Origin: Chloroflexi bacterium bin125
GTDB taxonomy: Bacteria; Chloroflexota; Dehalococcoidia; Bin125
Direction: 5' to 3'
DNA length: 57,936 nucleotides
NCBI GenBank assembly: GCA_002239025.1
Contig: MPNM01000018.1
Coordinates: forward strand, 1-57,936
Shown here: positions 29,793-48,694 of the stretch, piece after piece
How positions within the stretch are numbered: the first letter of the stretch is position 1
Layout of the letters: the number at the start of each line of letters is the position of its first letter
The notes under the pieces: model-generated
Database searches by the model: none
The model's input: only the letters and a program-made list of their open reading frames with translations
Told to the model about the DNA's origin: nothing
Position numbers and translations under genes: made by a program

Positions 29793-30260
29793 GTGGCGAC
29801 GATCGACTTCACCGGGGAGTACGAACATCGGCTGGACGACAGAGGTCGTCTGGCGATTCCGTCCCCGTATCGGGGTCTGTTCGAGCACGGTGGATTCCTG
29901 TTGCCGGGACCGGACGGGCAGATCGAGCTCTACACCCCCGAGGCATACGCCGCAGAGAAGCAAGTGCGGACCGTGGACGACAAACTGAGCGCTTCGGCCA
30001 GACGACTGGCGCGCAGCTTCTTCGGACGAGTGCGACGCGTGGAAACCGACCGTCAGGGACGGATCTTGATTCCGCCGCAGATGCGCCAGGAACGCAATCT
30101 CAACGGCGACACCGTGATCATCGGCATGGGCGATTACCTGGAAATCTGGAACTCCGAGGCCTGGCACAGCGAACAGGCAGAAATCGACGAGGGCTACGCC
30201 GAACTGCTCCAGCAGCTCGCCGAGGCAGCCGCCGCTCCGAACAGCTCGGAGGAGTCGTAA
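29793..30260 (+). CDS. mraZ: Transcriptional regulator MraZ
   Basis: A 155-residue protein with two AbrB-like SWAPT motifs: FTGEYEHRLDDRGRLAIPSPYR near the start and VETDRQGRILIPPQMRQ in the second half. MraZ forms rings and represses the dcw promoter. I choose GTG 29793 (AGGG 8 nt upstream, and MATIDFTGEYEH fits the usual N-terminus); the frame extends to ATG 29766, which lacks a ribosome site. Its stop overlaps the rsmH ATG (TAATG). Confidence 0.93.
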   Translation: MATIDFTGEYEHRLDDRGRLAIPSPYRGLFEHGGFLLPGPDGQIELYTPEAYAAEKQVRTVDDKLSASARRLARSFFGRVRRVETDRQGRILIPPQMRQERNLNGDTVIIGMGDYLEIWNSEAWHSEQAEIDEGYAELLQQLAEAAAAPNSSEES

Positions 30261-31177
30261 TGACTTCTCAGCATCAGCACATCCCGGTCATGGTGGACGA
30301 AGTCCTGGCCATGCTCGATGTCAAGTCGGGCGGTCGCTACCTCGACGCAACGGTCGGACTGGGCGGCCACGCCGAGGCAGTGCTGAGCGCATCCGGCGCT
30401 GACGGCCGATTGCTCGGCTGCGACGCCGACCCGGACGCGATTGCCGCAGCTTCGAAGCGTCTGGCTCCCTTCGGCGATCGCGTCAGCCTCCAGCAGTGTT
30501 GGATGGATGACGCCGCGAACGCCGCAACCGATGCTTCGATCACGCCATTGGATGGCGTGCTCTGCGACCTCGGCGTCTCTTCACTACAACTTGATACGCC
30601 GGAACGCGGATTCTCCTTCCAGGCTGAGGGTCCGTTGGATATGCAGTTGGGCCCGTCCGAGATTGCCGGCGCTTTCGACACGTCTGACCGCGCGACTGCC
30701 GACGAGATCGTCAACGAGTGGTCATCCGACGACCTGGCCAACCTGATCTACGAATACGGCGAAGAGCGTCGCTCTCGCCGAATCGCGCGAACGATCGTGG
30801 CGCGACGCCCAATCGCGACGACTACCGAACTGGCTCAGGCCGTGGTCGATGCCGTCGGCATCCGACCGGGCGCGAGGGTTCATCCCGCGACACGTGTCTT
30901 CCAGGCAATTCGCCTTGAGGTCAACCGCGAGCTCGAACGCCTGGCGACGTTCCTGTCGCAGGTGCGAGGCGTGATGCGTCTCGGCGGTCGGCTGGTCGTG
31001 ATCGCGTTCCACTCGCTTGAGGACCGGATCGTCAAGCGATTCCTGCGGGAACAGTCGGCAAGCGCTACGCCGGCGTTCCGCACCTTGACTCGACGAGTAC
31101 TGCGGCCGACGGCGGCTGAAGTCGAACGAAATCCACGGGCGCGCAGCGCGCGCCTTCGCGCAGCGGAGGCAATCTGA
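30260..31177 (+). CDS. rsmH: 16S rRNA m4C1402 methyltransferase RsmH (MraW)
   Basis: A 305-residue SAM-dependent methyltransferase acting on the decoding-site cytosine 1402 of 16S rRNA. N-terminal HIPVMVDEVL, SAM motif YLDATVGLGGHAEAVL, LCDLGVSSLQLD, and the C-terminal VIAFHSLEDRIVKRF are all present. A GGAGGAG in the end of mraZ serves its start. It is followed by an unusual 451-nt gap before the FtsL-like gene. Confidence 0.95.
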   Translation: MTSQHQHIPVMVDEVLAMLDVKSGGRYLDATVGLGGHAEAVLSASGADGRLLGCDADPDAIAAASKRLAPFGDRVSLQQCWMDDAANAATDASITPLDGVLCDLGVSSLQLDTPERGFSFQAEGPLDMQLGPSEIAGAFDTSDRATADEIVNEWSSDDLANLIYEYGEERRSRRIARTIVARRPIATTTELAQAVVDAVGIRPGARVHPATRVFQAIRLEVNRELERLATFLSQVRGVMRLGGRLVVIAFHSLEDRIVKRFLREQSASATPAFRTLTRRVLRPTAAEVERNPRARSARLRAAEAI

Positions 31178-31628
31178 TGCCACGGCTGCAATACCAGGCA
31201 AGTACGGAACGAGAAGAACAGGAGCGACTGGAGCGTCGGGAGCACGCTCGGAAATCGTTGAGCGGATCGTGTGCAGGGGACTACCTAACAGCCACTACAG
31301 TGAAGGAGAAGCCCCGCCGCCAAACCACTGGATCACGGTTGCGCGTGGCCCTGGGCCATGACGATCGTGGACCACGTCCCCCAGTCTGCGCGCACGATCC
31401 GCTCAACGATTCCCGAGCGCTTTCACACCAGAGTCTGGTGTGTGCATCCCACTTTACGTCGAATTGGCGGCACCGACGCCGAATACTCCCAACTTTCCGT
31501 AACCATTCCAATGCTCCGACGTTGAAGCCATTGACTGGCTCAATCGAGCACGTCTCTTGCCTACCCGGCGACACCCTAGTTGGCGATACCTGCTCGCGCG
31601 GAACTTCTCGACGCCGAACGGCGTTTCG
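31178..31628. other. Unexplained 451-nt gap inside the dcw cluster
   Basis: No convincing gene. A frame opens at 31177 (TGATG overlap with rsmH) and runs 151 codons; its first roughly 50 residues are charged and helix-like (STEREEQERLERREHARKS), the rest looks non-coding. The stretch contains a perfect 19-nt palindrome at 31424-31442 and a smaller one (CGTGG-A-CCACG, 31366-31376). It could hold an internal promoter, an RNA leader for ftsL, or a decayed gene. Confidence 0.4.
31424..31442. promoter_or_regulatory. Perfect 19-nt palindrome (CACACCAGA-G-TCTGGTGTG)
   Basis: Nine-base arms with a single central base, exact. It has the form of an operator for a dimeric regulator of the TetR or GntR type. 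It lies about 190 nt before the FtsL-like start and far from any T-tract, so a terminator is unlikely. Confidence 0.55.
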
Positions 31629-32141
31629 ATGACAACGGCGAAACCCAGCACGACGCTCGATGCGTCGTTGCCCACCTCGGCGGCGAGTGACTCTCACCAT
31701 GCGCTTCCCCGACCCGTCCTGCCGCGCCGGCCTCGCTACACGGGCCGCATGCCCGCCTGGGCCTGGCTGGCCGTCTTCGGACTCTGCATCGCGGCAACGT
31801 TACCGGTCATCCGCACGTCGAGCGTGACCGAGAGCGGAAGCGAACTGCGAATCCTGGAAGCGGAACGCGAGCGCCTGAACTCTGAAATCCGATCCCTCGC
31901 GGCGCATGTCGGGCAACTTGGCTCGTTGGCGCGAGTCAAGCACCAGGCGGAGGAGCGACTCAACATGGTTCCCGCCCGCCCGACTGCCGTGCTGGAAGTC
32001 AAACAACCTCCGCCGGCTCGCACATTGCCTTCGCGATTCTTACCGCCATCAGACGCAGCCAACGCTGGCTTGACCGATTCCACGTCAACGGCCGGCCAGT
32101 CGATCTGGGCTGGGATCTTCGACGTGCTGATCTTTGAGTAA
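31629..32141 (+). CDS. FtsL/DivIC-like division protein
   Basis: About 170 residues: a variable cytoplasmic N-terminus, one membrane helix (WAWLAVFGLCIAATLPVI), then an extracellular heptad-type coiled coil (ESGSELRILEAERERLNSEI) and a Pro/Ser-rich tail. Size, topology and its place between rsmH and ftsI identify it as the FtsL-type partner of FtsQ and DivIC/FtsB in the divisome. Sequence identity to known FtsL is low, as is usual for this family. The ATG at 31629 has no clear Shine-Dalgarno site; the frame is open upstream to a TTG at 31557. Confidence 0.65.
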   Translation: MTTAKPSTTLDASLPTSAASDSHHALPRPVLPRRPRYTGRMPAWAWLAVFGLCIAATLPVIRTSSVTESGSELRILEAERERLNSEIRSLAAHVGQLGSLARVKHQAEERLNMVPARPTAVLEVKQPPPARTLPSRFLPPSDAANAGLTDSTSTAGQSIWAGIFDVLIFE

Positions 32142-48601: not shown

Positions 48602-48694
48602 GTAGGGGCGACCCTTGTGGTCGCCCGCGTTGGAGAACACAAGGCTGACCAGATAGGCGTTACACAGCAGGCGACCACAAGGGTCGCCCCTACG
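48602..48694. repeat. Repeat family D (GTAGGGGCGACC element)
   Basis: A 93-bp inverted-repeat element: left arm GGGCGACC-CTTGT-GGTCGCCC, right arm GGCGACC-ACAAG-GGTCGCC, outer ends GTAGGGGCG and CGCCCCTAC. Its middle holds GACCAGATAGG at 48647-48657, the same core as in family A. It lies between two inverted family B copies. The flanking intergenic bases (48429-48871) contain no gene. Confidence 0.75.

Follow-up and report, generated by a model that had tools for sequence, protein, structure and literature searches.

A conserved structured RNA in a putative translated linker between rsmH and ftsL of Dehalococcoidia, probably relocated from rsmH

Coupled leader or linker open reading frames (ORFs), such as those of attenuator leader peptides, matter through their translation and not through their product. 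Long near-perfect stems that enclose a compact RNA, such as those flanking rRNA, are known as RNase III processing sites. The interval between rsmH (mraW) and ftsL in the dcw cluster of a sponge- or coral-associated Chloroflexota bacterium recalls both systems. Like an attenuator leader, it appears to be a short frame whose translation matters rather than its product, but it comprises ~125-250 codons, is located inside the operon and not at its 5′ end, and wraps a conserved multi-helix RNA. The closing stem of that RNA, P1, is long and near-perfect around a compact RNA, like the RNase III stems; unlike those flanking rRNA, it lies inside coding sequence, and its processing is a proposal made here.

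A structured RNA candidate associated with mraW, the mraW RNA motif, has been described in Actinomycetales (Rfam RF01746; Weinberg et al. 2010, PMC2864571). The element reported here is likewise a structured RNA associated with mraW, but it belongs to another phylum, is found downstream of or inside rsmH in putative translated sequence, and in its gap form does not match RF01746. In E. coli mRNAs, ORF-internal regulatory RNAs and 3′ ends have been reported (Adams et al. 2021, PMC7815308). With these our element shares its location within coding sequence, but it has a covarying long-stem fold found across many families and has apparently been relocated out of the gene. A search of open-licence papers, a scope that makes it weak evidence, returned no description of such an element.

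A structured RNA between rsmH and ftsL

In the window, i.e., the whole stretch of 57,936 nucleotides analysed, the spacing between rsmH and ftsL is unusually long, as an initial sequence-only reading had pointed out. That reading took the gap to be non-coding, but a 151-codon frame spans it entirely and terminates on the ftsL start codon (ATGA). The frame that it saw starting at the rsmH stop does exist and is this same ORF. The features of the region are as follows.

30260-31177, + strand: rsmH (mraW); Pfam Methyltransf_5, E 2.5e-95; the internal hairpin of sister genera is absent in this genus
31177-31632, + strand: linker ORF, 151 codons; TGATG overlap with the rsmH stop, ATGA overlap with the ftsL start
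31245-31419, + strand: structured RNA element, P1 closing stem plus inner helices; covariation; covariance model R1, 184.7 bits
31245-31274, + strand: P1 5′ strand; inverted repeat; 96% of P1 cells paired, compensatory changes in 11 pairs
31276-31281, + strand: P2 5′ strand GGGGAC; consensus structure, covariation
31303-31322, + strand: highly conserved, mostly unpaired segment AAGGAGAAGCCCCGCCGCCA; invariant or nearly invariant alignment columns
31330-31371, + strand: P3 and P4 helices, approximate limits; alignment; compensatory changes in P4 (GTGGCC/GGCCAT versus GTGACC/GGTCAT)
31376-31381, + strand: P2 3′ strand GTCCCC; consensus structure, covariation
31390-31419, + strand: P1 3′ strand; inverted repeat
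31424-31442, + strand: palindrome of the initial reading, forming a 3′ hairpin whose sequence varies; palindrome scan, comparison with relatives
31600-31627, + strand: small hairpin directly 5′ of the ftsL start codon; 3′-flank alignment and consensus fold; GGAAC..GTTCC type in relatives
31629-32141, + strand: ftsL; TIGR02209, E 2e-6 (below the curated cut-off), weak Pfam FtsL match; precedes an ftsI-type PBP gene

The initial reading missed a 30-nt inverted repeat, 93% complementary, between 31245-31274 and 31390-31419, and the gap RNA folds more stably than shuffled versions of it (z -5.4). An alignment of 20 copies of the element yielded a common structure made of P1 (22 pairs modelled), P2 (GGGGAC/GUCCCC), P3 and P4, with 92.9% of cells paired and double changes in 20 pairs and 59 cells. 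Shuffling gave 15.9 double-change cells, none of 500 shuffles reaching the observed number, and sliding the structure along the alignment reduced pairing to 32-41% of cells. The gap therefore holds a conserved structured RNA, whose covariation exceeds that of both the shuffled and the slid controls.

A cmscan search of Rfam 15, RF01746 included, up to E 5 revealed no family at or above its gathering threshold; the only match was a chance one of 19 bits, far below threshold, and a known RNA family was thus rejected. So was a mobile repeat or MITE, as the element is single copy in its own genome and found in relatives at dcw only, and a viral origin, the exact core motif being absent from viral contigs.

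Other conserved or repeated sequences were noted as well. The motifs CACTYTACG and TTTCCGTAAC are conserved 3′ of the RNA element (window 31451-31520, same place in L011-L024). They are separated by a fixed ~43 nt in an ungapped alignment, with variable sequence between them, and no consistent pairing was found for them. The repeat scan also detected a 24-nt perfect inverted repeat with a 44-nt loop at 48602-48693 of the window (GTAGGGGCGACCCTTGTGGTCGCC), and in L128 (G020) a 36-nt perfect inverted repeat with a 3-nt loop at 1097-1171, which contains GAGAAGCCCCCGC.

We located rsmH in 80 related genomes and extracted the rsmH-ftsL interval. The gap was present in 16 relatives, 15 of one genus (g1) and one of its sister genus (g4, G017), with a length of 376-745 nt in all 14 other members of the genus and ~570-670 nt in G017. 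In the other four family members (G015, G016, G018 and G019), ftsL directly follows rsmH. The ~175-nt core is 86-96% identical to the window copy in most genus members, and its flanks are strongly divergent. G007 and G008 have a more divergent sequence but keep the fold, and in G017 the sequence of P1 is largely different but still pairs. Six relatives (G002, G003, G004, G013, G014 and G017) have two tandem copies. Model R1 matched the gap in 16 of 16 g1 and g4 genomes, with no comparable match elsewhere in 393 genomes of the class and 400 of the phylum; a weak match in G543 (E 0.004 among 400 genomes) was put down to chance. A search of the GTDB collection for the exact core motif gave 13 genomes, every one of them among these relatives (Dehalococcoidia/Chloroflexota MAGs), and the gap element was found at one operon position only.

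A similar fold inside rsmH and its relation to the gap element

In sister genera and at least eight further families of the class, the gap element is absent and a similar long-stem fold lies within rsmH, at codons ~183-236. Weaker R1 matches of 27-32 bits fall inside rsmH in precisely those members of the family that have no gap; they are always at the same codons and are seen in family f2 too. Our census of rsmH showed the inverted repeat CGAGCAGGCCGTGGG/CCCACGGCCTGCTCG and variants of it at nucleotide ~552-573 in several families, and its absence there in the rest. A second covariance model, R2, built from rsmH copies only, scored above 100 bits in ~80 of 393 class genomes, the others being at the level of coding homology. 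G117 reached 104 bits without a stem, and the phylum sample contained no further R2 carriers outside the class. On direct inspection, 40 distinct rsmH sequences contained stems of 13-30 contiguous pairs, and those of L010-L025 had none.

The inner hairpins of the rsmH form covary by lineage (GGAGAGCC/GGCTCTCC, GAAGGGCC/GGCCCTTC, GGAGGGCC/GGCCCTCC; GTTAGC/GCTAAC versus GCTAGA/TCTAGC). The rsmH-embedded fold has 27 double-change cells against 8.1 after shuffling (0/500). We also used a codon null in which codons were dealt among rows sharing the same residue at the same column. The mean energy of the fold was -82.3, compared with -74.3 (sd 0.67) under this null (0/60). The gain in P1 pairing alone was modest under the strict codon null (59/2000), and synonymous shuffles of individual sequences were significant in part only. 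In two loci the amino acid is changed and the pair kept, by GAG to AAG with CTC to CTT in L157 and by GAG to GAA with CTC to TTC in L160. Codon choice in rsmH thus supports the fold of the whole element beyond amino-acid constraint. We discarded pervasive intragenic hairpins of GC-rich genomes as the source of the signal, since inverted repeats of at least 13 nt are rare in 20-kb samples.

In a few genomes (L078, L026), synonymous-shuffle energies were low elsewhere in rsmH too. Other stretches of rsmH in L078 (G051) and of its 5′ half in L026 and L027 are more structured than synonymous shuffles, with z down to -6.7, and rsmH of some lineages may therefore contain further embedded structures.

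The two forms exclude each other. Where rsmH contains the stem, the rsmH-PBP distance is short (~450-610); in g1 and G017 the stem is missing and the distance is long (915-1284). G155, G043 and G023, within the wider clade, have neither form. When an RsmH tree was computed with the hairpin columns removed, the genomes with a gap element grouped in a single clade (support 95). Its sister comprised the four members of this family that have an rsmH hairpin (98), and both were nested in a larger rsmH-hairpin group. R2 matched the gap elements at 10-31 bits, and these were the only places outside rsmH that it matched in those loci, apart from one weak reverse-strand match. The P1 5′ arms are alike and in the same codon phase (GTYGAGCxGG..CGTG; VEQAVGRG versus VERIVCRG), and a CCCCGCC core is common to both forms.

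Position, P1 likeness and reciprocal covariance-model matches thus make it likely that the gap element and the rsmH fold are homologous. We do not put this more strongly because sequence-only profiles link the forms marginally or not at all, and so failed as proof of homology, because R1 matches in rsmH are often near-equal on the reverse strand and therefore mostly reflect P1, and because the inner helices differ and primary-sequence similarity is weak. The differing helices and the scarcely connecting profiles would also fit two RNAs of separate origin, one having taken the other's place in the operon, with no relocation. We consider this unlikely, although it is the alternative that fares best: mutual exclusivity on a nested tree, reciprocal model matches, and the shared codon phase and core all speak against it. 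As the gap clade is nested among rsmH-hairpin genomes and the rsmH hairpin is lost there, the simplest history is a single relocation. In the common ancestor of g1 and g4, the RNA probably moved from the rsmH coding sequence to the rsmH-ftsL junction, with partial duplication as the likeliest route, after which the rsmH copy was lost.

Translation through the linker and a proposed role in cis

The frame from rsmH to ftsL is free of stops in 16 of 16 genomes, up to the ftsL start or its last few codons, whereas 3.3-6.7 stops per linker frame are expected by chance. Gap lengths within the genus are all equal modulo 3, and the tandem copies are spaced by 240, 240, 246, 342, 303 and 243 nt, all in phase. 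In G017 the frame is open as well and starts at TAAATG. In contrast with this maintenance of the frame, purifying selection on the linker amino acids of the kind acting on a conserved product was not found among the 16 relatives (omega 0.70-0.87, versus 0.20 in rsmH). The pN/pS values were 0.48/0.58 and 0.47/0.55 for the two flanks, 0.095/0.108 for the core and 0.17/0.55 for rsmH. An open, in-phase frame with near-neutral pN/pS suggests that translation through the interval is selected and the peptide hardly so. The linker thus seems to be a putative translated ORF whose start-stop coupling is maintained in all 16 genomes.

The sequence-only reading had proposed a new small RNA, which was correct in essence in that there is a 175-nt structured element; it is embedded in a putative translated ORF, however. 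A free small RNA of ~115 nt, acting in trans, might be released from the dcw transcript by RNase III-like cutting in P1, as with rRNA stems, linker translation being only anti-polar. The long perfect stem, the tandem copies in six genomes and the very high conservation of unpaired core positions in the genus would suit it. Nevertheless, we find it improbable, as the element always lies within an open in-phase frame, which is unusual for a free RNA, its operon position never varies, and in other families it is part of a coding sequence of an essential pathway, which would be destroyed by such cutting.

Even less probable is a protein gene, whose small, translationally coupled product would evolve fast around a conserved core (SLSGSCAGDYLTATTVKEKPRRQTTG...). 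The frame open in 16 of 16 genomes, its start-stop overlaps at both ends and the phasing of the tandem copies are what a protein gene would show, but a profile search found no Pfam or NCBIfam match for the product, which sets aside a known protein, and the omega values argue against a new one. Moreover, nonsynonymous changes in the P4 stem preserve base pairs, and divergent genus members retain the RNA fold and not the peptide.

The palindrome CACACCAGAGTCTGGTGTG, confirmed at 31424-31442, had been read as a dimeric operator or part of a second, separate ftsL promoter, which is very improbable, since the palindrome, albeit perfect, is not conserved in sequence and is missing in some relatives, has no second site in the genome even with up to 2 mismatches allowed, and lies in a gap in which no operator or repeated site was found, nor any promoter in a scan for sigma-70-like sites. 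Palindromes of this size are not rare in the genome: one perfect 9-1-9 palindrome occurred in each of three genome stretches checked (20-58 kb), i.e., ~1 per 20-58 kb, so that ~100 are expected genome-wide and one is not notable alone. At its position relatives have other stems (GAAGCCC/GGGCTTC, GACCCC/GGGGTC) or none. The comparison of the gap in relatives thus showed that the frame and the folded RNA are kept, in contrast to the palindrome sequence. The latter forms a 3′ hairpin that varies between relatives and is not the main feature of the gap.

On balance, we favor the view that the gap is a putative translated linker ORF carrying a conserved structured RNA of the dcw mRNA, relocated from rsmH and acting in cis. 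Its action in cis on that mRNA is inferred from the translated setting upstream of ftsL in both forms, the hairpin before ftsL in gap genomes and the kept overlaps, which make a traffic-dependent cis element the most economical proposal. Translating ribosomes would open the RNA element. If translation through the linker falters, the RNA would fold, forming a GC-rich stem with an accessible C-rich core, and the folded element might be cut by an RNase III-type enzyme, bound or otherwise read. Expression of ftsL and of the downstream division and cell-wall genes could then be set separately from that of mraZ-rsmH, through cleavage, binding or polarity. Ribosomes would be passed on to ftsL thanks to the start-stop overlaps at the two linker ends; the ftsL start itself sits behind the small hairpin.

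A broader proposal is more tentative, and we would not yet rely on it: an mRNA structure locked in rsmH would have been relocated to a putative translated linker ORF, giving rise to a new class of translation-embedded cis-regulatory RNA, possibly recognized by RsmH via the C-rich core. The core (CCGCC) presumably resembles the surroundings of C1402 of 16S rRNA, the RsmH target.

The locus joins two things that are rarely linked, a deeply conserved fold within the coding sequence of a core gene and, in one lineage, a closely similar fold outside that gene. It also indicates that translation itself, and not the peptide, can be the reason why a frame stays open. If relocation is true, rsmH was freed from a double constraint. 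If both forms are the same RNA, the relocated copy could be studied and altered by mutation while RsmH stays intact, which would make the function of a coding-embedded structure directly testable. Together, these observations point to a further, so far undescribed level at which ftsL and the division operon are controlled in Dehalococcoidia.
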